Assembly (NCBI RefSeq): GCF_000230995.2
Contig: NC_019973.1
Location: 5,470,001 to 5,534,000, forward strand
Length of the DNA: 64,000 bases
Source of the DNA: Mesorhizobium australicum WSM2073
GTDB lineage: Bacteria; Pseudomonadota; Alphaproteobacteria; Rhizobiales; Rhizobiaceae
Direction: 5' to 3'
A program made the position numbers and the translations under genes. The notes under the pieces were generated by a model. The model was given only the letters and a program-made list of their open reading frames with translations. It had not been told where the DNA came from and did not search any database. Below are positions 1,199 to 16,732 of this stretch, one piece after another; the stretch's first letter is position 1, and every line of letters starts with the position of its first letter.

Positions 1199-1222
1199 TT
1201 TGTTGGTCCTCGTTTGTTGGGG

Positions 1223-1258: not shown

Positions 1259-1272
1259 GGAATTTTTTGATT

Positions 1273-1318
1273 GAGCATGATGCTGGGGAAACCGGTTGCC
1301 ATTTTCCGGATCATGCTC
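1273..1318. repeat. Intergenic palindromic repeat (REP-like, GAGCATGAT type)
   Basis: A 46-bp imperfect palindrome has 9-bp arms GAGCATGAT (1273-1281) and ATCATGCTC (1310-1318) and an inner AACCGGTT core. From memory this resembles palindromes dispersed widely in Mesorhizobium and related genomes. It lies between eutC and eutD on the transcribed strand. Confidence 0.7.
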
Positions 1319-1330
1319 CTGCGGCCGGCG

Positions 1331-2323
1331 TCAGCTTTCAAAGATCGTTCCGGCTTTCGCGGCCAGCGCACGGTCGCGGGCGAGCGTGGCGATCGCCGTA
1401 TCCTGCACGCCCGTGCCGGTCAGATCGGCGATGGTGATGTCGCCAGCCGAGCGCCGGCCATGCCTCGCGCCGGCGATGATCTGGCCGAGCTCGGTCACCT
1501 CCGCGTCTCCAGCCATCAAGCCCGCCGCGATGGCATGGTGCAATTCGCCCAGGCGCCGCGTCTGTTTCGCGCTGTCGGCGACATAGAGATCGGCCATGCG
1601 CAGGATCGCCGGCGCTATCTCGTTCTTGTGCTCGGCGTCCGAACCCATGGCGGTGATGTGCTGGCCGGCCGAGACAAACCCTGCCTTGATCAGTGGTTCG
1701 GTCGACGGGGTGGTCGTGACGATGATGTCGGCACCGGCAACAGCGTTGGCTGCGTCAGTCTCGGCGCGCACGTCGATGCCGAGCCTTTCGCGTAAGGTGG
1801 CCGCGGTCACTTCGGCCTTGGCGGCATCGCGCGCCCAGATGCGGGCCTGCGTGATCGGCCGCACCAGCATCAGCGCTTGCAGTTGCAGCCCAGCCTGCAC
1901 GCCGGCGCCGAAGATCGAGGCGACCGACGAGTCCGGCCGCGACAGATGCTTGGCCGCGACGGCTCCCGCAGCAGCGGTGCGGACATCGGTGAGATAGCCG
2001 TTGTCGAGCAGCAAAGCCTCGACCAACCCTGTCTTCGACGACAGCAGCACCATCATGCCGTTGACGCTGGGCAGGCCAAGTTTGGGATTGTCGAAGAAGC
2101 CGGGGCTGATCTTGATGGCGAAGCCATCGATACCAGGCACATAGGCGGTCTTGACGTCAACCTCGCCGCGATGCTGCGGGATATCGAGCCGCAGGATCGG
2201 CGGCATCGCCACCGGCAGCGTGGCGAGCGCACGAAAAGCGTTCTCGACACAGGCGACGGCGTCGAGATCGAGCGTCACGATTGCGCGCAGTTCAGCTTCG
2301 GTGAGGATGGTCATCCTGCTCAT
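1331..2323 (-). CDS. eutC: EutC, ornithine cyclodeaminase/mu-crystallin family (hydroxyectoine pathway)
   Basis: This 330-residue Rossmann-fold protein is of the ornithine cyclodeaminase/mu-crystallin family. The nucleotide-binding glycine segment is seen in SVASIFGAGVQAGLQLQAL (about residues 133-151), followed by ADIIVTTTPSTEPL, both typical of the family. In ectoine users EutA, EutB and EutC together convert 5-hydroxyectoine to ectoine; the family alone does not reveal the substrate. The start overlaps the eutB stop by 4 bp (ATGA), which implies translational coupling. Alternative family members are alanine dehydrogenase or lysine cyclodeaminase, but the eutA-eutB neighbours decide the call. 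Confidence 0.92.
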   Translation of the reverse strand: MSRMTILTEAELRAIVTLDLDAVACVENAFRALATLPVAMPPILRLDIPQHRGEVDVKTAYVPGIDGFAIKISPGFFDNPKLGLPSVNGMMVLLSSKTGLVEALLLDNGYLTDVRTAAAGAVAAKHLSRPDSSVASIFGAGVQAGLQLQALMLVRPITQARIWARDAAKAEVTAATLRERLGIDVRAETDAANAVAGADIIVTTTPSTEPLIKAGFVSAGQHITAMGSDAEHKNEIAPAILRMADLYVADSAKQTRRLGELHHAIAAGLMAGDAEVTELGQIIAGARHGRRSAGDITIADLTGTGVQDTAIATLARDRALAAKAGTIFES

Positions 2324-3321
2324 GCGGCGCGCTCCGAAATCGATGGCATTTCCCCGCAGACAATCTTCCTGTGCAGTTGCATGTCGATGTTGCGGCCGGA
2401 AAGCAGAACCACAACCGGCCCCTCCGCCTTGACCTTGCCGGCGAGCAGCGCCGCGATGCCTACCGCACCGGCTCCCTCGACGATCTCGCGTTCCTGTTCA
2501 TAGGCGTGGCGAATGCCGGCAGCGATTTCATCCTCGCTGAGCAGGACGACATCGTCGAGCAGGTCGCGGCACATGGCGAAGGTCAGCCGGTTGTCGAGGC
2601 CGATGCCGCCGCCGAGCGAATCCGCCAGCGTCGGCAGTTCCTCGACCAGCACAGGGCGGCCCGCATCGAGGCTGGCCTTCATCGCGGCGCCCCGCGCCAT
2701 CGACACGCCGACGACTCTTGTTCCGGGACGGACACTTTTGACGGCCGCCGCTACACCCGAGGCCAACCCACCTCCGGACAGTTGCACCAGCACCAGAGCT
2801 GCATCCGGGACCTGGTCCATCACCTCCAGCCCGAGCGTGCCTTGACCGGCTATGATGGCCGGATGGTCGAAGGGCGGCAGCATGACAAGCCCCTCCTCCG
2901 TCACCAGCCGCTCGACCTCGTGCTGGGCATCGTCCTGGCTGTTGCCGACGATACGGATTTCCGCGCCGAGGCGGCGAATTTCGTCCAGCTTATTCCTGGG
3001 TACCAGTCGAGACATGCAGATCACAGCACGCATGCCCTCGAGCTTTGCCGCATGCGCAAGCGCACGGCCATGATTGCCGGTCGATGCCGCGACGACGCCG
3101 CGCGCCTTCTCCCTTGCGCTGAGCGAAGCGACGGCGTTGGAAGCGCCCCGCAATTTGAAGCTGCCGGTGGTCTGGCGGTGCTCGAGCTTGAGTTGAACCG
3201 GGACGCCCAGCCTTTCGGAGAGACTTGCCGAAAGCACGATCGACGTGCGCTCGATCTTGCCGGCAATTCGCTCGCCCGCGGCACGGATATCGCCAAGGGT
3301 GACGGTCGCCATGGTCGTCAA
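2320..3321 (-). CDS. eutB: EutB, PLP-dependent threonine dehydratase-like enzyme
   Basis: This 333-residue fold-type II PLP enzyme resembles threonine/serine dehydratase. The Schiff-base lysine is in GSFKLRGA (Lys56), the substrate loop is ASTGNHGRALA, and the phosphate-binding glycine stretch is SGGGLASG. With EutA and EutC it acts in conversion of 5-hydroxyectoine to ectoine, where loss of the hydroxyl group suits a dehydratase. It overlaps both neighbours by 4 bp (eutA stop at 3318, eutC start at 2323), so eutABC is translated as a coupled set. An M-T-T-M start leaves ATG at 3321 or 3312; the overlap favours 3321. Confidence 0.93.
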   Translation of the reverse strand: MTTMATVTLGDIRAAGERIAGKIERTSIVLSASLSERLGVPVQLKLEHRQTTGSFKLRGASNAVASLSAREKARGVVAASTGNHGRALAHAAKLEGMRAVICMSRLVPRNKLDEIRRLGAEIRIVGNSQDDAQHEVERLVTEEGLVMLPPFDHPAIIAGQGTLGLEVMDQVPDAALVLVQLSGGGLASGVAAAVKSVRPGTRVVGVSMARGAAMKASLDAGRPVLVEELPTLADSLGGGIGLDNRLTFAMCRDLLDDVVLLSEDEIAAGIRHAYEQEREIVEGAGAVGIAALLAGKVKAEGPVVVLLSGRNIDMQLHRKIVCGEMPSISERAA

Positions 3322-4097
3322 CCGCGCGGCAAGGGCAGCGTCATCAGACGGCCGAATTCGGGATGGGCTGTCTCATCACCGCAAAGGCGCAGACAATTCC
3401 AGGCGGTCGCCTGGTTGCTGGTCACCACCGGGCGGCCGATCGCCTCTTCCATGCCGGTGACCGCCAGCGCGCCGCGCAGTGCCGTGCACGACACGAACAG
3501 CGCATCGGCTTGCGGATGCGTCGCCTGGCGCGCGAGATCGATGAGGGCTGCCGGGGCAATGCGCGCCATCTCGCGGTCGTCCTCGAAGCCGAGACAGGTG
3601 AAGCTTAGGACTTCGAAGCCACGTTCGGCGAAATAGGTCGCCATCGGTCTGGAGGTTTCCACGGTATAGGGCGTGAGGATGCTGATCCGGCGCACGCCGA
3701 AGGCGTTCAGCCCGCGCACGCCAGCCATCGGAGGAGTGACAACGGGTATACCTGACTTGGCGGCCTGGATCGCCGTCTCGATCTCGGCATCGCCAATCAC
3801 CACCGAGGCCGACGTGCAGGAGTAGCAGATGGCGTCGAGCGGCTCGTCGGGCAGGATCAAGGCAGCGCCCGCCGTCAGCGCCGGCTGCATCTTGCGCAGG
3901 TTCTCAGGCGTCGTCGGGTTGGCGTAGGGAATGCGCGCGACATAGACGCCGATCCGTTCGCTCGCCACCATGCGGCGAAAATCCGGCTCGGTCGTGTGGT
4001 CGGTGGCCAGGATGATCAGCCCGACACGGCGTTCCAGCGGACGCTCATCGAGCGCTGGCCGGTCGGGCACAAGCTTGATCTCGGACAAGAGCTTCAT
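3318..4097 (-). CDS. eutA: EutA, Asp/Glu racemase / arylmalonate decarboxylase-like
   Basis: This 259-residue protein is of the Asp/Glu/hydantoin racemase superfamily, close to maleate isomerase and arylmalonate decarboxylase. Two cysteine motifs typical of the fold are present: CYSCTSASVVIGDAE (about residues 90-105) and FVSCTALRGA (about 200). It is the first gene of the eutABC block and is assigned to conversion of hydroxyectoine to ectoine by that context. It starts 3 bp after the ehuD stop (4101), so importer and enzymes form one operon. On sequence alone, 'maleate cis-trans isomerase family' would be the safe call. Confidence 0.92.
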   Translation of the reverse strand: MKLLSEIKLVPDRPALDERPLERRVGLIILATDHTTEPDFRRMVASERIGVYVARIPYANPTTPENLRKMQPALTAGAALILPDEPLDAICYSCTSASVVIGDAEIETAIQAAKSGIPVVTPPMAGVRGLNAFGVRRISILTPYTVETSRPMATYFAERGFEVLSFTCLGFEDDREMARIAPAALIDLARQATHPQADALFVSCTALRGALAVTGMEEAIGRPVVTSNQATAWNCLRLCGDETAHPEFGRLMTLPLPRG

Positions 4098-4100
4098 CTT

Positions 4101-4760
4101 TTATCTTTCGATCTTGCCGTAGCGGCGTTCCAGCCAGCGCAGCAGCACGACCGAAATCAGGCTGATGGCGAGGAAGAAGGCGCCGACCAGCGTGATCGGC
4201 TCAAGGTAGCGATAATAGGTGTTGGCGACGCTTTTCGCCTGGTTCATCAGCTCCAGCACTGTGATCGCCGAGAGCAGCGGCGTCTCCTTGAACATGGCGA
4301 TGAAATAGTTGGCCAGCGCCGGGATCATCGGCGGAATAGCCTGCGGGATGATGATGTGGGACCAGGTCTGCCGCGCGCTGAGATTGCACGCCTTGGCGGC
4401 TTCCCACTGACCACGCGGCACATTGTCGATGCCGGCGCGGTAGACCTCCGCCGTGTAGGTGCCGTAGTGCAGGCCAAGTCCGATGACGCCGGCGACCAGC
4501 GGCGGCAAGAGAATGCCGATGTCGGGCAAGACGTAGAAGATGAAATAGAGCTGCACCAGGAGCGGTGTGCCGCGGATGAATTCGGCCACCCAACCGACGG
4601 TGCGCGACAGCGCCTTGTTGGGCGAGCGGCGCGCCAGCGCGATGCCCAGACCGACGATCGCGGCCAGCACCGAGCCGAGCAGCGTCGCCAGGATGGTGAT
4701 CTTCACCCCCTGGATCAGCGTCGGCAGGATCTGCCGGACAAAGTCCCAGTCCCAATCCAT
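4101..4760 (-). CDS. ehuD: Ectoine/hydroxyectoine ABC importer permease EhuD
   Basis: This 219-residue inner-membrane permease is of the polar amino acid (HisM/GltK) family. It has about five hydrophobic segments and the EAA loop seen as QWEAAKACNLSARQTW, which contacts the ATPase EhuA. The open frame extends to 4850, but the family normally starts near MDWDWDFV, so ATG at 4760 is chosen; this leaves 34 bp after ehuC rather than a long overlap. It should pair with EhuC as a heterodimeric membrane channel fed by EhuB. The ribosome-binding site is weak. Confidence 0.9.
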   Translation of the reverse strand: MDWDWDFVRQILPTLIQGVKITILATLLGSVLAAIVGLGIALARRSPNKALSRTVGWVAEFIRGTPLLVQLYFIFYVLPDIGILLPPLVAGVIGLGLHYGTYTAEVYRAGIDNVPRGQWEAAKACNLSARQTWSHIIIPQAIPPMIPALANYFIAMFKETPLLSAITVLELMNQAKSVANTYYRYLEPITLVGAFFLAISLISVVLLRWLERRYGKIER

Positions 4761-4794
4761 CAGCGGACCCAATTCATCAGGAATGCTCTGGCCA

Positions 4795-5454
4795 TCAGAC
4801 GCGCACTCCGTCGAGGCCGCGCGCCATGCGGCGTTCCAGCGAGCGCACACCCCACGAGATGAGCAGCGCCAGGATGAAATAGATGATGAGGATGGTGGTG
4901 AACGGCACCATGGTGTTGCCGGTCTGGGCGCGCACCACCTGTGCCTGGAACGTCAGGTCGGCGAGCGAGATCAGCGAGACCACCGATGTCGCCTTGAGCA
5001 GTTCGATGGCGTTGTTGCCGAAGGTCGGCAGCATCACCAGAAACGCCTGCGGCAGGATGACGTGTCGCATGCCTTGCCAACGGCCGAGATTGAGCGCGAC
5101 GCAGGCCTCATGCTGTTCGCGGCCGATCGACTGCACGGCGCCGCGCACCACCTCGGCTGCATAGGCGCCCACATTCAAGCCCAGCGCCAACACACCGGCC
5201 TGCAGCGGGGTCAGTTCGAAACCCACCAGCGGCAACACGAAATAGGCGAAGAACAGCTGCACGAAGATCGAGGTGCCGCGGAAGAACTCGATATAGGCCG
5301 TGGCCAGGGCCCGCAGCACGAAGAAGCGCGACAGGCGCCCCATGCCGGCGAGAAAGGCCATGATCAGGGCGAGCACCGACCCCATCAGCGTCAGCTCGAT
5401 GGTGACAAGCGCTCCCTGCAATATCAGGCCGAAATAGCCGGACCACTGGGTCAT
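4795..5454 (-). CDS. ehuC: Ectoine/hydroxyectoine ABC importer permease EhuC
   Basis: This 219-residue polar amino acid-type ABC permease has an N-terminal hydrophobic segment GALVTIELTLMGSVLALIMAF and an EAA loop HEACVALNLGRWQGMRHVILP. It forms the transmembrane half of the importer with EhuD. Unusually, the gene is separated from ehuB by a 172-bp gap holding a mosaic of palindromes, so relative expression of binding protein and channel may be set there. Confidence 0.92.
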   Translation of the reverse strand: MTQWSGYFGLILQGALVTIELTLMGSVLALIMAFLAGMGRLSRFFVLRALATAYIEFFRGTSIFVQLFFAYFVLPLVGFELTPLQAGVLALGLNVGAYAAEVVRGAVQSIGREQHEACVALNLGRWQGMRHVILPQAFLVMLPTFGNNAIELLKATSVVSLISLADLTFQAQVVRAQTGNTMVPFTTILIIYFILALLISWGVRSLERRMARGLDGVRV

Positions 5455-5487
5455 AGAGTTGAAGTTTCCAACGTTGGTTTCAGCTTC

Positions 5488-5612
5488 CTTCTCCCCGTTT
5501 ATGGGGAGAAGATGCCGGCAGGCAGATGAGGGGCAGCGCTAGCTTGTCCAAATATGGCGCCGCCCCTCATCCGTCACTTCGTGACACCTTCTCCCCGTGA
5601 ACGGGGAGAAGG
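5488..5612. repeat. RIME-like mosaic palindromic element between ehuB and ehuC
   Basis: Four nested or adjacent inverted repeats are packed into 125 bp: CTTCTCCCC/GGGGAGAAG (5488-5496, 5503-5511); ATGAGGGGC/GCCCCTCAT (5526-5534, 5562-5570); GTCAC/GTGAC (5573-5577, 5581-5585); and a perfect 12-bp stem with a 2-nt loop, CCTTCTCCCCGT/ACGGGGAGAAGG (5587-5598, 5601-5612). The CTTCTCCCCG module appears twice. The layout matches the rhizobial intergenic mosaic elements (RIME) known from rhizobia. In the ehu mRNA it would fold strongly 3' of ehuB. Confidence 0.8.
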
Positions 5613-5626
5613 CAAGAAAGACGCCC

Positions 5627-6478
5627 TTATTTCGCCGCGCAGAGCTTGTCGCGCGTGGTCGACATAGCCGCCGCCGCCGAGAAACCGTAGGGCTCGATGA
5701 TCTTTGCGAACTCACCCGACTTCTTCATCTTGGCGAGTTCGACATCGAAGGCGTCGCGCAACGCCTCGTCACCCTTCTTGAAGGCGGCGCCGTCGCAATA
5801 GACCGGCGCGCCCTGCACCGGGGCGATGACTTCGAGGTTCGGATCGGCGGCCTTCTTCATCAGGTCGTTGATCGAAAGGACAGGCAGCGAATAGGCGTCG
5901 ATGCGGCCGTCCTGCACCATCTTCAGGCCACTCTGGCCGTCCGGCACGACGATGACGCGTTCGCGTGGCACGCCGGCGTTGAGCGCAAGCTTCTCCTCGG
6001 TGCCGCCGCCCGGCGCGCCGATGGTGGCTGACGTGTCCTTGGCGACATCCTCGTAGCTCTTGAAGCCTTTCGGATTGCCCTTCTTCACCAGCATCGCTTC
6101 GGCGTCGCACAGAACCGGCTCGGAATAGGCAACCGCGGCGCAACGCTCCGGCTTCATGAACAGGCCGGCGGTGACGACGTCGAAGCGGCCGGCCTGCAGG
6201 CCGGGAATCATGGCGCCATATTCCGAGATCGAGGCGGCGACATCGGCAACGCCCAGCCGCTTGAATATCTCGCGCGCGACGTCGGGCGCGGCACCCGAAA
6301 CCTTGCCGTCGGCGGCGACAGCCGTATAGGGCGGCTCATTGGCGATGGCCAAGCGAGCGAAGCCTTGCGACTTCAGCTGTTCAAGCTTGCTGTCGTCGGC
6401 CGAACCCGTGATCGAGGCGGCCAGAACCGCCGAAAGCGCGAGACCGGCGACGCCGGCCAGAGTTCCAAGTTTCTTCAT
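5627..6478 (-). CDS. ehuB: Ectoine/hydroxyectoine-binding periplasmic protein EhuB
   Basis: This is a solute-binding protein of the amino acid family (SBP_bac_3), 283 residues from ATG 6478. The signal peptide begins MKKLGTLAGVAGLALSAVLAASITGSA, so the mature protein is periplasmic. The domain start FARLAIANEPPYTA and PDVAREIFKRLGV are typical ligand-lobe motifs. EhuB delivers ectoine or hydroxyectoine to EhuCD. A TTG-initiated extension to 6487 exists, but AAGGAG 9-10 nt upstream of ATG 6478 fixes the start. The name depends on the ehuA, ehuCD and eut context; the family binds many amino acids. Confidence 0.92.
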   Translation of the reverse strand: MKKLGTLAGVAGLALSAVLAASITGSADDSKLEQLKSQGFARLAIANEPPYTAVAADGKVSGAAPDVAREIFKRLGVADVAASISEYGAMIPGLQAGRFDVVTAGLFMKPERCAAVAYSEPVLCDAEAMLVKKGNPKGFKSYEDVAKDTSATIGAPGGGTEEKLALNAGVPRERVIVVPDGQSGLKMVQDGRIDAYSLPVLSINDLMKKAADPNLEVIAPVQGAPVYCDGAAFKKGDEALRDAFDVELAKMKKSGEFAKIIEPYGFSAAAAMSTTRDKLCAAK

Positions 6479-6569
6479 TGTTCCCAACTCCTTGTTCTTG
6501 TCTTGGTTTGCGTGATCTTAGGACGGCTCAACCGCCCATGGGGACGGCATCGCCGCCTTTGGCATGCGG

Positions 6570-7361
6570 TCAGACACGATGTCCGGCCGCGATGATCTTC
6601 TTCAGGAACCCTTGCGTGCGCTCCTGCTTGGGATTGCGGAAAATCTCGTCGGGCTTGCCTTCCTCGACTATCCTGCCGCGATCGAAGAACAGCACCCGGT
6701 CGGCGAAGTCGTGGGCGAAACCCATCTCGTGGGTGACCAGCAGCATGGTCATGTCGGTCTCGGCGCAGAGCCGCCACAAGACACTGAGCACCTCCTCGAC
6801 CAGTTCCGGGTCGAGCGCCGACGTCACCTCATCGAACAGCATGATCTTCGGCTGCAAAGCAAGCGCACGGGCGATCGCCACGCGCTGCTTCTGACCGCCT
6901 GACAACTGCGCCGGCATCGCCTTCGCCTTGTCGGCCATGCCGACCATCTCGAGCAGTTCCATCGCCCGCTTCTGCGCCGCGGCGCGCGGCGTGCCCTTGG
7001 TCAGCATCGGCGCTAGGGTCACATTATCGATGACGCTCTTGTGCGGAAACAGGTTGAACAGCTGGAAGACCATGCCGGTTTTCTGGCGCATTCGCGCCAG
7101 GTGGCGCTCGTCAGCCGGCAGCAGCTGACCGTTGCGCTCCATGTGGTAGAGTTGCTCGCCGTCGATCTGGATGTGACCGCCGTCGATGCGCTCCAGCGTC
7201 ATCAGGATGCGCAAGATCGTCGTCTTGCCCGAGCCGGAGGGGCCGATCAGCGCCAGCTTCTCACGCGGCATGACCTGCATCGACAGGCCGTCCAGAACCT
7301 TGAAGCTGCCAAAGCTCTTCGAGATGCTGTCGATCTTGATGATGGGCGCGGTTGCGGACAA
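6570..7361 (-). CDS. ehuA: Ectoine/hydroxyectoine ABC importer ATPase EhuA
   Basis: This 263-residue cytoplasmic ATPase is of the polar amino acid importer class. Walker A GPSGSGKTT is at 40-48, signature LSGGQ at 153-157 and Walker B LFDEVTSALD with the catalytic pair at 177-178. It energises EhuBCD. It is the first importer gene after enuR, with 178 bp between them that hold repeated TCATGWCAATT elements and probably the ehu-eut promoter. Start is ATG 7361. Confidence 0.94.
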   Translation of the reverse strand: MSATAPIIKIDSISKSFGSFKVLDGLSMQVMPREKLALIGPSGSGKTTILRILMTLERIDGGHIQIDGEQLYHMERNGQLLPADERHLARMRQKTGMVFQLFNLFPHKSVIDNVTLAPMLTKGTPRAAAQKRAMELLEMVGMADKAKAMPAQLSGGQKQRVAIARALALQPKIMLFDEVTSALDPELVEEVLSVLWRLCAETDMTMLLVTHEMGFAHDFADRVLFFDRGRIVEEGKPDEIFRNPKQERTQGFLKKIIAAGHRV

Positions 7362-7417
7362 ATGAATTTCCCCGTGCTGGAGAAGCCTGGTGCCCTAACG
7401 ATGCGGAACGCGCCAAA

Positions 7418-7451
7418 TCATGTCAATTGGGAAAATAATATCATGACAATT
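7418..7451 (-). promoter_or_regulatory. Candidate EnuR operator upstream of ehuA
   Basis: Two copies of TCATGWCAATT lie at 7418-7428 and 7441-7451, 23 nt apart, between enuR and ehuA. The reverse complement of the first contains CAATTGACA, the same 9-mer found at 8951-8959 upstream of enuR and asnC. The spacing and the sharing suggest a MocR-type operator. This is inference only; no promoter hexamers are clear. Confidence 0.4.
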
Positions 7452-7539
7452 ATTCTGATTGCGCACATTTTCCGGTCAATCCCAGCCGGCTTTTTGGACA
7501 TGCCTTTGTCAGAACGCCTTGGTGTATTGGGCGGCATGC

Positions 7540-8925
7540 TCAGATTGCAAGCAGCAGATGCTCCGGATCGCCAAGCAAGAGCTTGGTGACAACGCCGAGA
7601 CCCGCGCGCAGTTCCCCCTCGGTGGTCGAACCCAGCGAAATGCGCACCGCCGGATGCCAGGGCGTATCCGAAATACGGAAGGAGGTGCCCGGCGCAATGG
7701 CCACGCCTTGCAGCCGAGCCTGGGCGACAAAGCTTTCCTCGGAACGGTCGGCCGGCAGTTGCAGCCAGATATGCAACCCGTCGCGACGGGCACGGTAGTC
7801 GACGCCGGCCAGCACCTCGCCCGCGATGTCCTGTCGCCGCCGCAACGCCGCGCGCTGCCAGCGCACCAGCTCCATCGCGGTGCCGTCGGTCACCCATTTG
7901 GTGGCGATCTCGGCCACCAGCGGTGTCGCCATCCAGTTCGAGACTAGATGCCGGTTGGCGACAGCGGCAACGTAGCGATCGGGCGCGGCGAGATAGCCGA
8001 TGCGCAGGCCGGGCACGGTGATCTTGGTGAAGGAGGTGACGTAGAGCGTCCGTTCCGGCGCGAAAGCGGCGACCGGCGGCGGTCGATCCTCGACCAAGGG
8101 ACCCAGCACGTCGTTCTCGATGATGGCGATGTCGTGCTTGCGCGCCACCGCCGCGATCTGCTCGCGACGCTCCGCATCCATGAGCGTTGCCGTGGGATTG
8201 ATTACCGAAGGCTGCACGAAGACGGCGCGGATGTCGGACAGCCGGCAGGCTTCGTCCAGCGCTTCCGGAATCAGGCCATTGCCGTCGATCGGCAGGCCTT
8301 GAAGATTGAAGCCGAGATAGCGCGCCAGCGGCACCAGCGTATGATGACCGATCGCCTCGGTGGCAACGGTGGAGCCGGGCGGCGCCACGCTCATCAGCGC
8401 CACCGTCATGCCGGCCGTGGCGCCATTGGTGAGGCTGATATTCTGCGCGGAGGCGTCCAGCCCGCACAACTTCAGCCATTCGACCGCTACGGCACGGTGG
8501 CGCGGGAACACCATGTTTGGCCGGAACGACAGTGCCGAACTGGAAGGCAGGTTTTCGGCGAGCCAGCCCAGCGCCTGCTTCATCCGCTCCAGGTGCATCG
8601 GCTCGCAGACCGGCTTCAGGATCGACAGGTCGATGACTTCACCCAGGCGCTCCGGCAGATAAGGCGGCTCCGGTTCGCGGCGCTGCGTCTGCACAAAGCT
8701 GCCGCGGCCGATCTCGCCCGAAATCAGGCCGCGCCGGATCAGTTCCTCATAGGCACGGCTGACCGTCTGCACTGAAAGCTTGAGGTCGTCGGCCAGGCGG
8801 CGATGGGTCGGCAACCGCGTGCCGTTGGCGAGGCGGCCGTCGTGGATGGCGCGCGCGAACTGGTCGGCCAACGATTGATAGGCCGGCCGCCGGATGAGCG
8901 CGGGATCAGGGTGCCACAATGTCAT
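7540..8925 (-). CDS. enuR: MocR/GabR-type regulator EnuR
   Basis: This 461-residue regulator has an N-terminal GntR winged helix (about residues 15-80, with LPTHRRLADDLKLSVQTVSRAYEEL) fused to a class I aminotransferase-like domain. PLP would bind Lys301 in YVTSFTKITVPGLRIGY. In characterised ectoine users EnuR represses the uptake and catabolic genes and responds to N-alpha-acetyl-diaminobutyrate or diaminobutyrate bound to PLP. Here it sits between the ehu-eut operon and the divergent asnC-ssd-atf operon, the right place to control both. Start ATG 8925, only 83 bp from the divergent gene. Confidence 0.92.
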   Translation of the reverse strand: MTLWHPDPALIRRPAYQSLADQFARAIHDGRLANGTRLPTHRRLADDLKLSVQTVSRAYEELIRRGLISGEIGRGSFVQTQRREPEPPYLPERLGEVIDLSILKPVCEPMHLERMKQALGWLAENLPSSSALSFRPNMVFPRHRAVAVEWLKLCGLDASAQNISLTNGATAGMTVALMSVAPPGSTVATEAIGHHTLVPLARYLGFNLQGLPIDGNGLIPEALDEACRLSDIRAVFVQPSVINPTATLMDAERREQIAAVARKHDIAIIENDVLGPLVEDRPPPVAAFAPERTLYVTSFTKITVPGLRIGYLAAPDRYVAAVANRHLVSNWMATPLVAEIATKWVTDGTAMELVRWQRAALRRRQDIAGEVLAGVDYRARRDGLHIWLQLPADRSEESFVAQARLQGVAIAPGTSFRISDTPWHPAVRISLGSTTEGELRAGLGVVTKLLLGDPEHLLLAI

Positions 8926-9008: not shown

Positions 9009-9500
9009 ATGACTGCTGCGAAACTCGACGCGATCGACCTCAAAATCCTCGACGCCATCCAGCGTGATGGACGCATCACCAAGCTGGCGTTGGCCGAGCA
9101 GGTCGGGCTGTCGCCGACGCCGTGCTGGATGCGGCTGCGCAAGCTGGAAAAGGCCGGCATCGTCTCGGGTTATCATGCCCGGATCGCCATGCGCGTTGTG
9201 GCGCCAGTCGCCACCGTGCTGATGGAGGTGACGCTGGCCAGCCACCGCCAGGCCGATTTCGACCGCTTCGAGCGCGTCATCCGCGACATCCCCGAGATCG
9301 TCGCCTGCTGGTCGGTAGGCGGCGGCGTCGACTATGTGCTGAAGGTGATGGCGCGCGACATCGACGCCTATCAGCGGCTGGTCGACGGCTTGCTCGATCG
9401 CGAGATCGGCATCGACCGTTACTTCACCTACATCGTCATCAAGACGGTGAAGGATGACATCGCGCTGCCGATAGCGGACCTGCTGCCGGCGTCGACCTAG
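9009..9500 (+). CDS. Lrp/AsnC-family regulator of ectoine catabolism (DoeX/AsnC type)
   Basis: This 163-residue feast/famine regulator has an AsnC-type helix-turn-helix at residues 5-60 (LDAIDLKILDAIQRDGRITKLALAEQVGLSPTPCW, split here between helix and turn) and a RAM/AsnC ligand-binding domain after residue 65, with the conserved segment VVGGVDYVLK in the form VGGGVDYVLKVMARD. AsnC/DoeX genes accompany ectoine-degradation loci and are thought to act as activators that sense acetyl-diaminobutyrate or a related metabolite. It heads the plus-strand operon with ssd and atf and diverges from enuR. Autoregulation through the short shared intergenic region is likely. Confidence 0.88.
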   Translation: MTAAKLDAIDLKILDAIQRDGRITKLALAEQVGLSPTPCWMRLRKLEKAGIVSGYHARIAMRVVAPVATVLMEVTLASHRQADFDRFERVIRDIPEIVACWSVGGGVDYVLKVMARDIDAYQRLVDGLLDREIGIDRYFTYIVIKTVKDDIALPIADLLPAST

Positions 9501-9527
9501 ACCGGATCGACTGCCCCCTCGCCGCAA

Positions 9528-9544
9528 TAGAGAGACTCTCTCTA
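9528..9544. promoter_or_regulatory. Perfect TAGAGAG/CTCTCTA palindrome upstream of ssd
   Basis: TAGAGAG (9528-9534) and CTCTCTA (9538-9544) flank ACT, between the asnC-type gene and the dehydrogenase. It could be an operator or a processing hairpin. It lacks a T tract, so a terminator is not claimed. Confidence 0.35.
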
Positions 9545-9625
9545 CGGCCAGGCGTCCAAACAGCCTCTCTGTCTGCCGGTGATGGGTAGTCTCCCCGCAT
9601 CAAACCGAACCGGGAGGCTTCGACC

Positions 9626-11119
9626 ATGTCCGCGCATTTCGCCCGCTCGCATCGCCACGAAGCGCTCGACCGGCTCGCCGACCGCCGGCTGCTGCGCGAA
9701 CTCGCCTATATCGACGGCCACTGGACGGCAAGCGGGGCGGCCGAGAGTTTCGAGGTCACCGATCCCGCGACCGGCACCACCGTGGCCTTCGTCGCAGCGC
9801 TCGATGCCGGCCAGACGACAAAAGCCATCGACGCCGCCGCGCGCGCCTTTCCGGCCTGGCGGGCGCTGCTGCCGCAGGAGCGCTCCAAAATTCTGCGAAA
9901 ATGGTTCGAGCTGATCATCGCAGCGAAAGACGACCTCGCTCTGCTGATGACGCTTGAGCAAGGCAAACCGCTCAAGGAGTCGCTTGGCGAAATCGACTAC
10001 GCCGCCTCTTTCGCCGAGTGGTATGCCGAGGAAGCAAAGCGCCTCAACGCCGAGAGCGTCACCAGCCATCTGCCGAACGCGGAAATGATGGTGCGGCGCG
10101 AACCGCTCGGTGTCGTCGGCGTGGTCACGCCGTGGAATTTTCCTTCGGCGATGCTGACCCGCAAGGCAGCCGCCGCACTTGCCGCCGGCTGCACCATCGT
10201 TGCGCACCCGTCTTCCGAGACGCCACTTTCGGCGCTGGCGCTGGCCGAACTCGGCGAACGCGCCGGACTGCCGGCCGGCGTTTTCAACATCGTCACCGGC
10301 AAGGCCGCGACGATCGTTGGGCGCATGTGCGAAGATGCGCGCGTGCGCGCCATGAGTTTTACCGGCTCGACCGAGATCGGCCGGCTGATCGCCGCCCAAA
10401 GCGCGCCGACGATGAAGCGGCTGGTGATGGAGCTTGGTGGTCACGCGCCGCTGATCGTCTTTGCCGATGCCGATCTCGACAAAGCGGTGACCATTGCCAT
10501 CGACGCCAAATTCGCCACATCAGGCCAGGACTGCCTTGCGGCCAACCGCATCTATGTCCAGCGTCCGCTCTATGACCGCTTCTGCGCTGCTTTCGCCAAG
10601 CGCGTCGAGGCGCTGCGGGCCGGCAATGGCTTGGCCGATGACGTCGACATCGGGCCGCTGATGCATGAGCGCGCCGTCAAGAAGGTCGAGGAACAGGTCG
10701 CCGACGCCGTGGTCCTCGGCGCGCATTGCCTCGCCGGCGGCAAGCGCCATCAGGCCGGACCGCTCTTCTACCAGCCGACGCTGCTGGCCGATGTCGCCGA
10801 CGACGCGCTGATCATGCGCGAAGAGACCTTTGGTCCGGTCGCCGCCGTCACGCCTTTCGACAGCGAGGACGAAGTCATCGCACGCGCCAATGCGACCGAA
10901 TATGGCCTGGTCGCCTATGTGGTGACCGAGAACGGCGCGCGCCAGCAGCGCATGGGCCGCGCGCTCGACTACGGCATGGTCGCCATCAACCGTGTGAAGA
11001 TCACCGGCGCGCCGATCCCGTTCGGTGGCGTCAAGCAGTCCGGCATCGGCCGCGAAGGTTCGCGCCACGGGCTAGAAGCTTTCACCGACCTCAAATACCT
11101 TTGCCTGGATGTGGCGTAG
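9626..11119 (+). CDS. Succinate/aspartate-semialdehyde dehydrogenase of ectoine catabolism (Ssd/DoeC type)
   Basis: This 497-residue NAD(P)-dependent aldehyde dehydrogenase is close to GabD. It shows VTPWNFPSAMLTRKAAAALAAGC for cofactor binding, the general-base glutamate in MELGGHAPLIV and the catalytic cysteine in SGQDCLAANRIYV. The C-terminal motif FGGVKQSGIGREGS is typical of succinate-semialdehyde dehydrogenases. Beside the ectoine genes its role should be oxidation of aspartate semialdehyde to aspartate, the last step of the route. It is followed after 33 bp by the aminotransferase, which has a clear ribosome-binding site (AAGGAG). Confidence 0.9.
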   Translation: MSAHFARSHRHEALDRLADRRLLRELAYIDGHWTASGAAESFEVTDPATGTTVAFVAALDAGQTTKAIDAAARAFPAWRALLPQERSKILRKWFELIIAAKDDLALLMTLEQGKPLKESLGEIDYAASFAEWYAEEAKRLNAESVTSHLPNAEMMVRREPLGVVGVVTPWNFPSAMLTRKAAAALAAGCTIVAHPSSETPLSALALAELGERAGLPAGVFNIVTGKAATIVGRMCEDARVRAMSFTGSTEIGRLIAAQSAPTMKRLVMELGGHAPLIVFADADLDKAVTIAIDAKFATSGQDCLAANRIYVQRPLYDRFCAAFAKRVEALRAGNGLADDVDIGPLMHERAVKKVEEQVADAVVLGAHCLAGGKRHQAGPLFYQPTLLADVADDALIMREETFGPVAAVTPFDSEDEVIARANATEYGLVAYVVTENGARQQRMGRALDYGMVAINRVKITGAPIPFGGVKQSGIGREGSRHGLEAFTDLKYLCLDVA

Positions 11120-11152
11120 GCTCGCACCCGGATCTCTTTCAAGGAGTTAAAA

Positions 11153-12532
11153 ATGCTCGACCAATCCAACGAACTCGCCGCATGGGATCGCGACCATTTC
11201 TTCCATCCCTCAACGCATATGGGCACCCACGCACGCGGTGAATCGCCGACGCGGATCATGGCCGGCGGTGAAGGCGTCACCGTCTGGGACAACAATGGCA
11301 GGAAGAGCATCGATGCCTTCGCCGGCCTCTATTGCGTCAATGTCGGCTATGGCCGCCAGAAGATATCAGATGCCATCGCGACCCAGGCGAAGAACCTGGC
11401 CTATTACCACGCCTATGTCGGGCACGGCACCGAGGCGTCGATCACGCTCGCCAAGATGATCATCGACCGCGCGCCGAAGGGCATGTCGAGGGTCTATTTC
11501 GGCCTCTCCGGTTCGGATGCCAACGAAACCAACATCAAGCTGATCTGGTACTACAACAATGTGCTGGGGCGGCCGGAGAAGAAGAAGATCATCTCGCGCT
11601 GGCGCGGCTATCACGGCTCGGGTGTCATGACGGGCTCGCTGACCGGGCTGGACCTCTTCCACAACGCCTTCGACCTGCCGCGCGCACCAATCCTGCATAC
11701 CGAGGCGCCGTACTATTTCCGCCGCGTCGACCGCTCGATGAGCGAGGAGCAGTTCTCGCAGCATTGCGCCGACAAGCTCGAGGAGATGATCCTCGCCGAA
11801 GGGCCCGAAACCGTCGCCGCCTTCATCGGCGAGCCGATCCTCGGCACCGGCGGCATCGTGCCGCCGCCCGCCGGCTATTGGGAAAAGATCCAGGCGGTGC
11901 TGAAGAAGTATGACGTGCTCCTGGTCGCCGACGAGGTGGTGACGGGCTTCGGCCGGCTGGGCACCATGTTCGGCTCTGACCATTACGGCATGAAGCCCGA
12001 CCTTATCACCATCGCCAAGGGCCTGACCTCGGCCTATGCGCCGCTGTCGGGCGTCATCGTGGCCGACAAGATGTGGCAGGTGCTGGTGCAAGGCTCCGAC
12101 AAGCTCGGCTCGCTCGGCCATGGCTGGACTTATTCGGCGCATCCGATCTGCGTTGCCGCCGGCGTCGCCAATCTTGAACTGATCGATGAGATGGACCTGG
12201 TGCGGAATGCTGGCGAGACCGGCGTCTATTTCCGTGCCGAACTGGCCAAGGCCGTCGGGGGTCACAAACATGTCGGCGAGGTGCGTGGCGACGGCATGCT
12301 GGCGGCGGTGGAATTCGTCAAAGACCGCGACGACCGTGTCTTCTTCGATGCTTCGCTCAAGATCGGGCCGCAAATTGCCACGGCCCTTGCCGCGAGCGGC
12401 GTCATCGGCCGCGCCATGCCGCAGGGCGACATTCTTGGCTTCGCGCCGCCGTTGTGCCTGACCCGCGAGGAAGCCGACATCGTGGTGGCCAAGACCGCCG
12501 ATGCCGTGAACAGCGTATTTGCAAATCTCTGA
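11153..12532 (+). CDS. Class III aminotransferase, diaminobutyrate transaminase (Atf/DoeD type)
   Basis: This 459-residue omega-amino acid aminotransferase has the PLP-phosphate region GLSGSDANETNIKLIWYYN, the Asp of VADEVVTGFGRLG that contacts the pyridine nitrogen, and the Schiff-base lysine in ITIAKGLTSAYAPLSG. The family also acts on putrescine, beta-alanine and pyruvate. Context points to transamination of L-2,4-diaminobutyrate to aspartate semialdehyde, the substrate of the preceding dehydrogenase. AAGGAG lies 9 nt upstream of the ATG. The next gene starts 9 bp after the stop. Confidence 0.9.
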   Translation: MLDQSNELAAWDRDHFFHPSTHMGTHARGESPTRIMAGGEGVTVWDNNGRKSIDAFAGLYCVNVGYGRQKISDAIATQAKNLAYYHAYVGHGTEASITLAKMIIDRAPKGMSRVYFGLSGSDANETNIKLIWYYNNVLGRPEKKKIISRWRGYHGSGVMTGSLTGLDLFHNAFDLPRAPILHTEAPYYFRRVDRSMSEEQFSQHCADKLEEMILAEGPETVAAFIGEPILGTGGIVPPPAGYWEKIQAVLKKYDVLLVADEVVTGFGRLGTMFGSDHYGMKPDLITIAKGLTSAYAPLSGVIVADKMWQVLVQGSDKLGSLGHGWTYSAHPICVAAGVANLELIDEMDLVRNAGETGVYFRAELAKAVGGHKHVGEVRGDGMLAAVEFVKDRDDRVFFDASLKIGPQIATALAASGVIGRAMPQGDILGFAPPLCLTREEADIVVAKTADAVNSVFANL

Positions 12533-12541
12533 GACCGACTC

Positions 12542-13636
12542 ATGAATGCCATAACCAAAACCCTCCCCGCCACCATGGCCGCCGTGCTGCTCACCGGGCA
12601 CGGCGGACCGGAAAAGCTCGTCTACCGAACCGATGTGAAAGTGCCCGCGCCTGCGTCAGGTGAAGTGCTGGTGAAAGTCACCGCTTGCGGCATGAACAAT
12701 ACCGATGTCTGGGTGCGCCAGGGCGCCTATGGCACGGAAGAGGACGCGGCCGCCGTTTCGACTTGGCGCCGCCAGGGCAACACGCTGACCTTCCCGCGCA
12801 TCCAGGGCACCGACACTGTCGGCACCATCGTTGCCGTCGGCGAAGGCGTTTCGTCGGATCGAATCGGCGAACGGGTGATGGTCGATTTCTCCATCTACAA
12901 CCGCGACGACGATTCCCTGGCCGACATCGACTATATGGGCCATGGCCGCGACGGCGGCTATGCCGAGTATCAGACCGTGCCGGCCGAGAACGCGCATGTT
13001 GTCGACACTATTTTGAGCGACGTCGAACTCGCCACCTTCTGCTGCGCCTATCTCACCGGCGAACAGATGCTGGAACGGGCTAACCTCAAGGCAGGCGAGC
13101 GCGTGCTGGTCACCGGCGCGTCGGGCGGCGTCGGCTCCGGCATCGTGCAACTGGCGCGGGCGCGTGGAGCCATTCCCTTTGCTGTCGTGGGCAAGGGCAA
13201 GGAAAAGGCGGTGCTCGACATCGGCGCCGAGGCGGTCGTCACCCGTGGCGTCGCGGACCTGCCGCAAGCCGTGAGCGAGGCGACCGGCGGCCAGCCGATC
13301 GATGTGGTCGCCGATCTCGTTGGCGGCGCGATCTTCAACGACCTGCTGCGCATCCTGAGGCCCGAGGGCCGCTACACCACGGCCGGCGCGATCGCAGGTC
13401 CGGTCGTCCAGCTCGATCTCAGGACCATGTATCTGAAACAGTTGCAGCTGCACGGATCGAGCCAGGGCACGCGCGCCGATTTCCGCCGCATCGTTCGCTA
13501 CATCGAACAGGGCAAGATCCGGCCGCTTGTCGGCGGCGTCTACAAACTCTCCGATTTCCACCGCGCACAAGCCGATTTCGTCGCCAAGGATTTCGTCGGC
13601 AAGCTGGTGGTGGTGCCCGACGCCGTCGCGAAGTGA
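12542..13636 (+). CDS. Quinone oxidoreductase-like MDR protein, last gene of the ectoine plus-strand operon
   Basis: This 364-residue medium-chain dehydrogenase/reductase has a GroES-like N-terminal domain and a Rossmann domain with VLVTGASGGVGSGIVQLARARGA (about 190-212). The catalytic-zinc cysteine context is replaced (ACGMNNTDVW) and no structural zinc cysteine cluster is visible, as in zinc-free quinone oxidoreductases. The gene begins 9 bp after the aminotransferase stop, so it is co-transcribed with ectoine catabolism. It is not one of the standard eut/doe genes and its substrate is unknown. A reductase acting on an aldehyde or enone side product is one possibility. Confidence 0.82.
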   Translation: MNAITKTLPATMAAVLLTGHGGPEKLVYRTDVKVPAPASGEVLVKVTACGMNNTDVWVRQGAYGTEEDAAAVSTWRRQGNTLTFPRIQGTDTVGTIVAVGEGVSSDRIGERVMVDFSIYNRDDDSLADIDYMGHGRDGGYAEYQTVPAENAHVVDTILSDVELATFCCAYLTGEQMLERANLKAGERVLVTGASGGVGSGIVQLARARGAIPFAVVGKGKEKAVLDIGAEAVVTRGVADLPQAVSEATGGQPIDVVADLVGGAIFNDLLRILRPEGRYTTAGAIAGPVVQLDLRTMYLKQLQLHGSSQGTRADFRRIVRYIEQGKIRPLVGGVYKLSDFHRAQADFVAKDFVGKLVVVPDAVAK

Positions 13637-13784: not shown

Positions 13785-15281
13785 ATGACAGCCCGAATGA
13801 TACTGCTCGACGCCAAGCCGCTTGGCATCGAGGATGTCGCCGAGATCGCGCGGCGCAATGCGCGGCTGATGTTGGGCGAGGAGGCGATGCGCCGCATCCG
13901 GGCGAGCCGCGCGCTCATCGAGCAGCTGACGCAACTCGGCAAGCCGATGTACGGCGTCACCACCGGCCTCGGCGCCTGCGTCGACACGCCGCTCGCGCAG
14001 GCCGATCTGATCGCCTTCCAACACAGCGTGCCGCTCAGCCACAGCATGGGCATCGGCCCGGCCCTTCCCACCGAGGCGGTCCGCGCGCTGATGGCCGCGC
14101 GCATTTCGGGAATGGCCGCCGGCGGCACCGGCACTTCCGAACGCGTGGTGATGGGCCTTGTGGCGGCACTCAACGCCGGCGTCCATCCGGTGATCCCGAC
14201 CTGGGGATCGATCGGAGCGGCGGACCTTGCCCATCTCGGCCACATGGCGCGAGCGCTGCGCGGCGACGGCGAGACGGAGTTCCAGGGCAGGATCATGCCG
14301 TCGGCCGAGGCGCTCGCGCTCGCCGGGCTCGAACGGCTCGACCTGCGCGAGAAGGACGGCCATGCCATCATCGTCGCCAACAGCCTGTCGACCGGCGCGG
14401 CTTGCCTCTGCCTGGAGGATGTCGCCCACCTCATCGACTGGTCGCTGGCCGCGGTGGCACTCAACCACGAAGCGTTCCGCTCGTCACTCACCGCCATCGA
14501 TGAAGCTGCGCTGTCGGCGCGACCGGCGTTCGGCCAGCGGGAGATCGGGGCGCGGCTGCGGGCGGAACTCGCTGGAAGCGGGCTCTGGAGGGAGAACGTC
14601 GCGCGGCGGCTCCAGGATCCGCTCAGCTATCGTTGCGTGCCGCAGGTGTGGGGCGGCCTGTTGCATGCGTTCGAACAGGCGAAGCTGGCAACGGAGATCG
14701 AACTGGCCCATTCCGGCGACAACCCGGTGATCCTACCCGAGGACGGATGCGTCGTCTCGAACGGCAATTTCGACCTCACCGCGATGACGCTGGCCTGGGA
14801 GCAGCTCGGCCAGGCGCTTGCGCATTGCGCCGTGGGCACCGCCAATCGCTGCATGAAGCTGATGTCGCCGACGGTGGCGGAACTGCCGCGCTTCCTGTCG
14901 GCCAGGGGCGGCAGCCGCCAAGGCTACGCCGAATTGCAGAAACCGCTTGCCGCGCTGGAGGCCGAGATCCGGCATCTGGCCAACCCGATGTCGCTCAGCC
15001 CGCTTGCCGTATCGGACGGGATCGAGGACCAGTCGTCGATGGCACCACGGGTGGTGGCCAAGACAGCCGAGATTGTCGAACGCCTGCGCTATCTCGTTGC
15101 GATGGAGCTGATCTTCGCGGCGACGGGCGTGGAGTTGCGCGGCGTCGTCGACAGTATGGGCGAAGGACCACGGCGCACCTACGCCGCCGTGCGTGCGCTC
15201 GTCAGCCCGCTCGACGACGACCGCGAGATGAGCGCGGACATGACGCGGGTCGCCCGGATGGTGGCTGGTCCCCGAGACTGA
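13785..15281 (+). CDS. Aromatic ammonia-lyase family protein lacking the MIO tripeptide
   Basis: This 498-residue member of the HAL/PAL/TAL family keeps the catalytic-loop tyrosine motif YGVTTGLG (56-63), the SGDNPVI segment and a C-terminal SDGIEDQSSMAPR corresponding to the family's SADQEDHVSM. At residues 141-149 the sequence reads GSIGAADLA, where the family has GSVGASGDLAPL. The Ala-Ser-Gly that cyclises to the electrophilic MIO group is therefore absent, with a one-residue deletion and no serine. I checked the codons at 14205-14231 and the frame is intact. It cannot be an ordinary histidine or phenylalanine ammonia-lyase. A lyase for a substrate with a better leaving group is one possibility, since ergothionase is, as I recall, a MIO-free relative. 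Convergent with the dehydrogenase that follows. Confidence 0.85.
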   Translation: MTARMILLDAKPLGIEDVAEIARRNARLMLGEEAMRRIRASRALIEQLTQLGKPMYGVTTGLGACVDTPLAQADLIAFQHSVPLSHSMGIGPALPTEAVRALMAARISGMAAGGTGTSERVVMGLVAALNAGVHPVIPTWGSIGAADLAHLGHMARALRGDGETEFQGRIMPSAEALALAGLERLDLREKDGHAIIVANSLSTGAACLCLEDVAHLIDWSLAAVALNHEAFRSSLTAIDEAALSARPAFGQREIGARLRAELAGSGLWRENVARRLQDPLSYRCVPQVWGGLLHAFEQAKLATEIELAHSGDNPVILPEDGCVVSNGNFDLTAMTLAWEQLGQALAHCAVGTANRCMKLMSPTVAELPRFLSARGGSRQGYAELQKPLAALEAEIRHLANPMSLSPLAVSDGIEDQSSMAPRVVAKTAEIVERLRYLVAMELIFAATGVELRGVVDSMGEGPRRTYAAVRALVSPLDDDREMSADMTRVARMVAGPRD

Positions 15282-15289
15282 GTTCCGGC

Positions 15290-16732
15290 TTATCGCTGGA
15301 AAGGTCCCCTGAGATTGAGGTTCTCGGCCAGAAGGCAGAAGCGGTCGATCAACCGGACAAGGTCCTCGCCCTGCTCGGCGACAACGGCGCCTCGCTCGGC
15401 AGGCGAGTTATCGGAGAGAGCCTTCCACAACCGGCCTTGCCGATCGCAGAGATCCGCCAGCTCGGAACATTCGCTAGCGGTCAGTTTCAAGAGCTGGCCG
15501 GAGGTCACCAATCCAATGCCTGGAGGCGTGGTTGCTCCAAGGGAAAGATAGGCCGGCGGCACGCTGCCTTTTGCGTTCGTCACCGACTTTCGGCAGATGA
15601 CATCGAAGATCTGGTCGACGGCCTGCTTGGCGCCGGCGACGCGCGAGGGATGATCCGTATCGGCTGCCGCATGCGGCAGAAGCTCGAGTTTTCCGCTGTG
15701 CTTCTCGACGAGGCCCAGATAGGGCAGCATCGGTCCGGAAAGGCGACCGGTCGCGGCATCCTTGAACAGGTCGGCATCGATCGCGGCATGACGCACCCTG
15801 CCCGAGGACAAGGCTTCGCCGAGGGCCGCAACGTCGACAAGCTCGCCGCGATCGTAGTTGACCAGCACCGCGCCTTTGTTCAGGCGCGACAGGACATCCG
15901 CGCCGATGAGCCCGGCATTGGCGTAGCGGCCGGTCTGCGCATCCTGCTTGCCCAGGCCGACATGAACACTCAAGACATCGGCACCATCAGCCGCATCGAG
16001 GAGATCCGCCGCATAGACAAAGCCTTCGGCCTCTATCCAGTCCCGATGCCGGGGCCGTGCGTGGATCACCACGCGCATGCCGAAGGCCTGGGCAAGTTTG
16101 GCCACCTCCCTGCCGATATTGCCGTAGCCGACGATCGCGATCGTCTTGCCTTCGAGCTTTTCGGTCGGGAAATCGCGCAGCTCCCTGCCGGTGTCGAAGG
16201 CGCCGCGCGCCACCCGGTTGTGAAGCAAGTCCACCGGGAGATCCGGCAGCACTTTCAGGATCGCCTTCATCACCATCTGCGCCGTGGCGCGGCTGTTGAT
16301 GCCGGGCGTATTCATCAGCACGGCCGTACCGCCTTCGCCGCTGCCGCCGCCCCAGGAGTGCGAACCCATATTGCCGGTGCCGGCGCCGATGCGGACGCCG
16401 GCGAGCGGAAAGACGGTTTCGGCGGGCAGGAAGGTCGCGGCGGCAATGACGGCATCATAGCGTCCATCGCCGGCGACTTCGATCAGCTCTTCGCGGGTGC
16501 TGAGGTCCGGCTGATAGAAGAAATGCACGCGGCCAGATTCGAGAGCGGCCTTGTCGCCAAGCGCAGCCGCATGAAAGCGGCCGCCCTTGGCTTCGATATG
16601 CGCACGCACCTCCGACGGGTCGGGCTTTCCGTCGGCGTCGAAGCGCAGGCCGATCAGATCGCAGACCAGCACGGTGTAGGCGCGTTGCGGATCGACCGGT
16701 TCAACGGCGCGGGTGTCGGCATTTGCGATCAC
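15290..16732 (-). CDS. D-isomer-specific 2-hydroxyacid dehydrogenase family protein with C-terminal extension
   Basis: This 480-residue NAD(P)-dependent dehydrogenase is of the D-2-hydroxyacid/formate dehydrogenase superfamily. The Rossmann glycine motif is AIVGYGNIGREVAKLAQAFG (about 208-227), followed by VLVNYDRGELVD with the substrate-binding arginine and LLPHAAADTDH with the catalytic histidine. It is about 130 residues longer than typical members, the extra part following the catalytic domain. A glycine/serine-rich stretch GSHSWGGGSGEGG precedes the cofactor domain. Substrate unknown. It is convergent with the lyase (8-bp gap) and divergent from the ABC exporter, so shared function is only suggested. 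Confidence 0.82.
   Translation of the reverse strand: MIANADTRAVEPVDPQRAYTVLVCDLIGLRFDADGKPDPSEVRAHIEAKGGRFHAAALGDKAALESGRVHFFYQPDLSTREELIEVAGDGRYDAVIAAATFLPAETVFPLAGVRIGAGTGNMGSHSWGGGSGEGGTAVLMNTPGINSRATAQMVMKAILKVLPDLPVDLLHNRVARGAFDTGRELRDFPTEKLEGKTIAIVGYGNIGREVAKLAQAFGMRVVIHARPRHRDWIEAEGFVYAADLLDAADGADVLSVHVGLGKQDAQTGRYANAGLIGADVLSRLNKGAVLVNYDRGELVDVAALGEALSSGRVRHAAIDADLFKDAATGRLSGPMLPYLGLVEKHSGKLELLPHAAADTDHPSRVAGAKQAVDQIFDVICRKSVTNAKGSVPPAYLSLGATTPPGIGLVTSGQLLKLTASECSELADLCDRQGRLWKALSDNSPAERGAVVAEQGEDLVRLIDRFCLLAENLNLRGPFQR

Follow-up and report, generated by a model that had tools for sequence, protein, structure and literature searches.

What does a histidine ammonia-lyase-like protein do once the residues that form its MIO group are gone? 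The question is raised by a gene in the window, by which we mean the whole stretch of DNA analysed, 64,000 nucleotides of Mesorhizobium australicum WSM2073 (NC_019973.1, positions 5,470,001 to 5,534,000). The gene and its product, the query, have the following features, in window positions; conservation is given over 16 MIO-containing rows of the alignment (MIO rows) and over 47 clade rows, which form the smallest clade that holds the query and ergothionase and contains no MIO rows.

13785..15281, forward strand: MIO-less lyase gene, 498 aa, PF00221 (434 bits)
13950..13973, forward strand: tyrosine loop YGVTTGLG, residues 56-63, with Tyr56 (from sequence and alignment)
14205..14243, forward strand: former MIO site GSIGAADLAHLGH, residues 141-153, with one residue fewer than GSVGASGDLAPL and no serine
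14352..14384, forward strand: KDGHAIIVANS, residues 190-200, in place of KEGLALLNGTQ
14631..14633, forward strand: Arg283 in QDPLSYRC, in 47 of 47 clade rows and 16 of 16 MIO rows
14940..14942, forward strand: Lys386 (LQK), common to the query and ergothionase, in 41 of 47 clade rows and 0 of 16 MIO rows
15024..15026, forward strand: Glu414 (IEDQ), common to the query, ergothionase and histidine ammonia-lyase (HAL), in 47 of 47 clade rows and 15 of 16 MIO rows

The query matches the Pfam Lyase_aromatic family over residues 13-470 and shares with HutH full-length homology, the tyrosine loop, the QDP..RC segment, the DNP segment (residues 312-314) and Glu414. It differs from HutH in lacking the ASG triad and in having Val at position 197, where the Asn of KEGLALLNGTQ is found in all 16 MIO rows. 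Indeed, no MIO triad (Xaa-Ser/Cys-Gly) is present; the site reads GSIGAADL, and alignment to the HAL of P. putida places one missing residue there and leaves the triad without its serine. This agrees with the earlier note, which had recognized the lost triad at 14205 and had also seen that the tyrosine loop and DNP persist. Its view that this is a changed enzyme and not a pseudogene is borne out by the intact 498-codon frame and by low dN/dS. Tyr56, which we take to be the equivalent of catalytic Tyr53 of HAL, Arg283, presumably the carboxylate-binding Arg of HAL, and Glu414 each occur in 46-47 of the 47 clade rows. What survives beside the lost triad is the tyrosine loop, Arg283, Glu414 and a lysine of the ergothionase type, Lys386. 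Eight NCBIfam lyase models (HutH/PAL/TAL/aminomutase) matched the query, none of them over its cut-off (HutH, 379 against 539 bits). The MIO-dependent PAL/TAL enzymes and aminomutases belong to the same superfamily and score lower, and the host's own HutH, 32% identical to the query, has retained ASG. A promoter and terminator scan of 12400-15500 found none.

The site is no local oddity, as it could seem from this stretch alone, but the mark of a conserved lineage. GAAD was found in all 120 homologues among the matches listed, one row reading GAADSAPL. We also read 84 related loci from named records (80 loci and four plasmids), and in every one of them the lyase has GAAD (82 by pattern, L052 and L112 by eye), both residues of QK and the glutamate of ED. 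Since GAAD is shared by all of these loci and dN/dS between the query and nine orthologues is 0.06-0.13, the missing triad is neither chance nor a sequencing error. Seven of 297 genomes of the order, including the host, have a GAAD lyase at least 57% identical to the query, and five more, all of one genus, have one at 47-49% identity. More broadly, 190 alphaproteobacterial genomes, 57 of them with a match, gave 96 distinct PF00221 frames, of which four are the host's: 60 have ASG, two ACG, one TSG (L205), three are partial, and 30 have no triad. Here L135 and L013 count once, as a single gene; very short matches, such as L149 and L217-L218, are left out. One homologue, P0010, resembles a GAGD paralogue in its N-terminal part and a GAAD lyase in the remainder, as would follow from paralogue recombination or an assembly chimera.

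Ergothionase is a trimethylamine lyase that works without MIO, according to the available part of a 2026 survey (PMC13405746). The comparison with this enzyme, proposed in the earlier note, proves to be the correct one. Ergothionase of T. denticola (6s7j/6s7q) is the top-scoring solved structure; its lead is narrow in the sequence comparison (248 bits, with 244 for the runner-up) and clearer in the profile comparison (384 against 357). Like the query, it belongs to PF00221, has no MIO triad and carries QK and IED motifs, whose Lys and Glu, the counterparts of Lys386 and Glu414, we take to be among its essential residues; its SSIGEGDITTLSH has the one-residue deletion in common with the query. 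The two proteins are 29.5% identical over 481 residues, ergothionase having GEGD and the query GAAD, and they lie in separate subclades.

This kinship was also apparent in phylogenetic trees, from which P0177 was excluded. In a tree with rows chosen by hand and the MIO motif columns masked, a 48-row MIO-less clade holds both the query and ergothionase (SH-aLRT 92). The GAAD rows form a 10-row clade (99) inside a 27-row MIO-less subclade (99), and T. denticola ergothionase sits in another clade of 17 rows (100). Forcing the GAAD rows together with the MIO rows was rejected by an AU test (p 0.0014). In another tree, sequences shorter than 430 aa or more than 68% identical to a retained row were thinned, some being retained deliberately. 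The masked tree, a quick one, implied two MIO changes, but an unrooted arrangement with every MIO row on one side of a branch was not rejected (AU test, p 0.787) and scored better, so two independent losses of MIO are not upheld. Judged by the features tested, the query is not an ammonia-lyase; it belongs with the MIO-independent proteins of the wider clade around ergothionase. That it might be a standard MIO enzyme whose triad merely deviates, or the product of a sequencing error, is scarcely credible: we found no support for it, the TSG and ACG variants seen elsewhere retain Ser or Cys, no Ser or Cys stands at the site in any of the 84 loci, and the AU test separates the GAAD rows from the MIO enzymes.

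How might such a protein work? Our best explanation, to which we give not quite even chances, is that it is a MIO-independent C-N lyase acting on imidazole betaines related to ergothioneine, from which it eliminates the amine. The amine that is eliminated is likely to be pre-activated; for the family as a whole, our best guess at the substrate is a betaine of the ergothioneine group. The protein would bind an amino acid with an imidazole ring and an alpha-amine that leaves readily as it stands; the leaving group would most likely be the trimethylammonium of ergothioneine, of its S-oxidised or S-methyl forms, or of hercynine. Tyr56 would remove the beta-hydrogen while Lys386 and Glu414 polarise the ring, and the amine would depart to give a urocanate-type acid. 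A good leaving group would fit the clade, in line with the earlier proposal of a substrate that needs no electrophilic help. The same residues bear on the idea that lyase activity has been lost and that what remains is a HAL-fold relic with a binding or regulatory role. The missing triad and a very divergent host paralogue (L004) speak for a relic; the near-invariance of Tyr56, Arg283 and Glu414 in the clade, the low dN/dS and the activity of ergothionase without MIO, reported in PMC13405746, leave it only a slight chance.

The genes around the lyase offer a different kind of evidence. Its neighbours in the window are these.

20..8925, reverse strand: eutD, eutC, eutB, eutA, ehuD, ehuC, ehuB, ehuA, ehuR (nine of nine over NCBIfam cut-offs)
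9009..12532, forward strand: AsnC-type regulator, aldehyde dehydrogenase, class-III aminotransferase (Pfam/NCBIfam matches), presumably the ectoine-degradation genes doeX-doeC-doeD
12542..13636, forward strand: zinc/MDR-type alcohol dehydrogenase, directly upstream of the lyase, present in 13 of 84 loci
15290..16732, reverse strand: gene of the D-2-hydroxyacid dehydrogenase family, running convergently to the lyase (PF02826; no listed NCBIfam model over cut-off)

The lyase does lie beside ectoine catabolism (eutDCBA-ehuDCBA-ehuR) and a 2-hydroxyacid dehydrogenase gene, as had been noted. The eut and ehu genes, for ectoine uptake and degradation, are its neighbours, and at most candidate partners. 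The arrangement ehuR / asnC-ALDH-AT-ADH-lyase occurs in 13 of the 84 loci, all 13 among the 40 whose lyase is at least 86% identical to the query (some of the 40 end early, and L050 has it in part), and none of the 44 more distant loci has an ectoine-type set. A general link to ectoine is thereby ruled out and, despite the consistent gene order in those 13 loci, the chance that the lyase performs a step of ectoine catabolism is negligible. Of the earlier suggestion that the ectoine genes point to betaine-like or osmolyte substrates, the osmolyte hint is consequently weak. Betaine-like substrates are plausible on other grounds: two relatives adjoin genes for ergothioneine utilisation, and others adjoin an OpuAC-type binding protein.

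The ergothioneine-utilisation pathway is now modelled in NCBIfam. In Rhizobium setariae (L082), four genes of this pathway, all over cut-off, lie opposite a GAAD lyase that has 58% identity to the query: thiourocanate hydratase (1024 bits, cut-off 930), thiohydantoin desulfurase (571 against 440), ErtE (591 against 520) and ErtD (766 against 600). At L076, where the lyase is 71% identical to the query, the neighbours are UbiX, UbiD, ErtE (583) and ErtD (776), the two Ert proteins again over cut-off. UbiX and UbiD lie there between the GAAD lyase and ErtE/ErtD (L076:11553-16198), in an interval without thiourocanate hydratase and desulfurase, and UbiD may stand in for these two enzymes. We had considered UbiD as a sign of cinnamate-type products and dropped this idea because ErtD and ErtE lie beside it. 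L082 and L076 are the only two of the 84 loci with Ert-type neighbours. In the host, thiourocanate hydratase (675 against 930 bits) and ErtD (208 against 600) stay below cut-off, and thiohydantoin desulfurase has no match. Among 12 GAAD genomes checked, G468 alone has all three genes, which accompany a lyase of the GCAD type and not the GAAD lyase of that genome; G238 and G274 pass the ErtD cut-off only. The egtD model for ergothioneine synthesis was over cut-off in none of 15 genomes, and likewise in none of the control genomes. To judge by these neighbours, the GAAD family can serve ergothioneine breakdown; the host enzyme is without a visible downstream route of that kind.

Other neighbours recur among the relatives, as called and clustered with our own gene caller, Pfam and NCBIfam being run on representatives only. 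A gene of the OCD family is present in 33 of 84 loci, in 32 of them no more than two genes from the lyase. Its subfamily (64-98% identity) occurs in 19 of 297 genomes, 17 of which are among the at least 23 with a verified clade lyase, a minimum in that only the loci of best matches were read in the 297 genomes; this co-occurrence has a Fisher value of 9e-21, which ignores the relatedness of the genomes. Five OCD genomes (G225, G461, G238, G226, G228) have no lyase beside the OCD gene. A PhnD-like protein with no obvious signal peptide is found in 28 of 84 loci, an OpuAC-type binding protein adjoins the lyase in 15 and a HutC-type regulator in 19 (both checked by Pfam/NCBIfam on L035). A CoA-transferase, SDR and MaoC set is present in 15 loci, and additionally in Paracoccus aminophilus with a CaiB-type enzyme; UbiD is present in three. 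No gene across the 84 loci had an ordinary HutU or HutI as its best match. As to the OpuAC-type proteins, the ergothioneine importer EgtU is, according to PMC9732360, annotated as an Opu-type system.

The OCD association extends beyond the GAAD lyases. The host genome has four PF00221 genes: HutH (ASG), the query, a GAGD lyase and a divergent GEGD protein. The GAGD lyase (C1:3328224-3329678), also found on plasmids L121, L123 and L124, is MIO-less with QK and VED motifs and has 39% identity, across 482 residues, to the query, from which it differs in having GAGD for GAAD and in retaining Asn197. It lies directly beside an OCD-family gene (the pair spans C1:3328224-3330685; L127:9171-11770), and such a gene adjoins the GAGD lyase in all five loci read (L121, L123, L124, L127, L225). 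The same subfamily adjoins some other MIO-less lyases; in Polaromonas it is one gene away from an ergothionase-like lyase.

Lyases of the ergothionase and GCAD kinds accompany thiourocanate hydratase in L125, L134 and L272, and a third MIO-less type, GSVGYL... (GSVGYLIATAHI/GSVGYLSHMAHI; L126:7914-9446, L280-L290), is found among hut genes. On a Klebsiella pneumoniae plasmid (L126) it lies with hutI, hutU, hutC, hutF and an OpuAC-type transporter, and the 17 kb of that plasmid seen contain no HutH. Of 11 alphaproteobacterial loci of this type, seven have HutU and nine HutC, two (L286, L287) have no hut genes, and the ABC system next to the lyase was not recognised as one of OpuAC type. The natural guess is that the GSVGYL-type lyase is a histidine betaine (hercynine) trimethylamine lyase.

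The presence of thiourocanate hydratase and Ert genes at L082 and L076 leads us to prefer imidazole betaines over other aromatic betaines, and the association of other MIO-less lyases with trimethylated-histidine pathways also counts for an ergothioneine-group substrate, as do the OpuAC-type binding proteins and HutC-type regulators that adjoin the lyase in 15 and 19 of the 84 loci. Against it we count that the CoA-transferase, SDR and MaoC set is not obviously needed by a urocanate-type acid, that Ert-type neighbours are rare and the host is without the three downstream genes sought, that the conserved OCD-like and PhnD-like proteins are not accounted for, and that ordinary HutU and HutI are missing as best matches. 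Narrower forms of the reading fare less well. A strict ergothionase, acting on ergothioneine itself, would explain why the GAAD lyase at L082 is paired with thiourocanate hydratase and three later steps, and would account for the top solved-structure score; we consider it unlikely, because the host has neither thiourocanate hydratase, ErtD nor desulfurase, G468 keeps these genes with a different lyase and the query falls outside the 17-row ergothionase clade. A lyase that supplies urocanate from hercynine to the host hut pathway is distinctly unlikely. It would suit the single host cluster of HutH with matches to HutU, HutI, HutF and HutG and the HutC-type regulators beside 19 relatives, but not the absence of ordinary HutU or HutI best matches from the 84 loci, and the GSVGYL... 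type is a better fit for this role.

Two further alternatives part with the imidazole betaine in different ways. If the substrate were the betaine of tryptophan, tyrosine or phenylalanine, the aryl-acrylate product would enter CoA-dependent chain shortening. The CoA-transferase, SDR and MaoC set, the CaiB-type set in Paracoccus and the OpuAC-type binding proteins agree with such a route, as does the failure to find the ergothioneine genes sought in the host. However, L082 and L076 link the family to hydantoin-5-propionate, an imidazole-derived intermediate; UbiD at L076 accompanies Ert genes and so is no argument for cinnamate-type acids; and a phenyl or indole ring would acidify the beta-hydrogen poorly. 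On this balance a non-imidazole betaine is also unlikely. Alternatively, a secondary amine might leave from an opine- or metallophore-type N-substituted aromatic amino acid, with the OCD-like partner acting on the N-alkyl amino acid. This would give meaning to the tight co-occurrence and proximity of OCD genes and clade lyases, to the relationship of the OCD protein with SbnB (below cut-off) and to the NtaA/DmoA-type monooxygenases that adjoin GAGD lyases. Nevertheless, we judge it very unlikely: the five OCD genomes noted above have no lyase beside the OCD gene, the Fisher value takes no account of relatedness, the OCD reaction is itself only putative, and the OpuAC and Ert neighbours indicate betaines.

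Alongside the preferred ergothioneine-group reading, we consider it possible, if on balance doubtful, that rhizobia and other alphaproteobacteria have a so far undescribed branch of betaine catabolism, defined by the GAAD and GAGD lyases and a dedicated OCD-like partner protein. An aromatic betaine, of the ergothioneine group or another, would then lose its amine without the help of MIO, and the product would be passed to CoA-transferase/SDR/MaoC or to UbiD before ErtD/ErtE, and not to urocanate or thiourocanate hydratase. Among the papers listed by our literature searches, none was on GAAD lyases or their OCD partner. Ergothionase is the sole MIO-free family member named in the part of PMC13405746 available to us, which calls the enzyme rare and yet warns of poorly annotated homologues. 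In database records, triad-less genes are often named histidine ammonia-lyase, and others HAL/PAL/TAL family. If these proteins are betaine lyases, many hutH annotations are misleading, soil and root nodules would hold hidden sources of trimethylamine, and the family would be a natural test of MIO's purpose, the activation of a poor leaving group.

Several observations concern the wider family. The divergent GEGD protein of the host, its third MIO-less paralogue (L128:9086-10906; C1:1236250-1237746), has GTLGEGDLATL and YWFNRGAG, a signal-peptide-like start and a very long tree branch. L148 and L190 have Ala-Cys-Gly at the MIO site, where a MIO-like group may still form. A further triad-less PF00221 group, with motifs such as GGAGEIL and QAPVSWR, comprises L138 and L216 (one genome), L139-L144 and L215, and occurs as tandem copies in one genome. 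PhnD/SsuA-type proteins with no obvious signal peptide lie near MIO-less lyases at L035:15612-16430, L121:11489-12289 and L118:11703-12539; they are perhaps cytosolic enzymes. Finally, on pSymA of Sinorhizobium meliloti (L119:13244-13912), an ergothionase-type lyase lies near an annotated dimethylsulfoniopropionate lyase and an ABC system.
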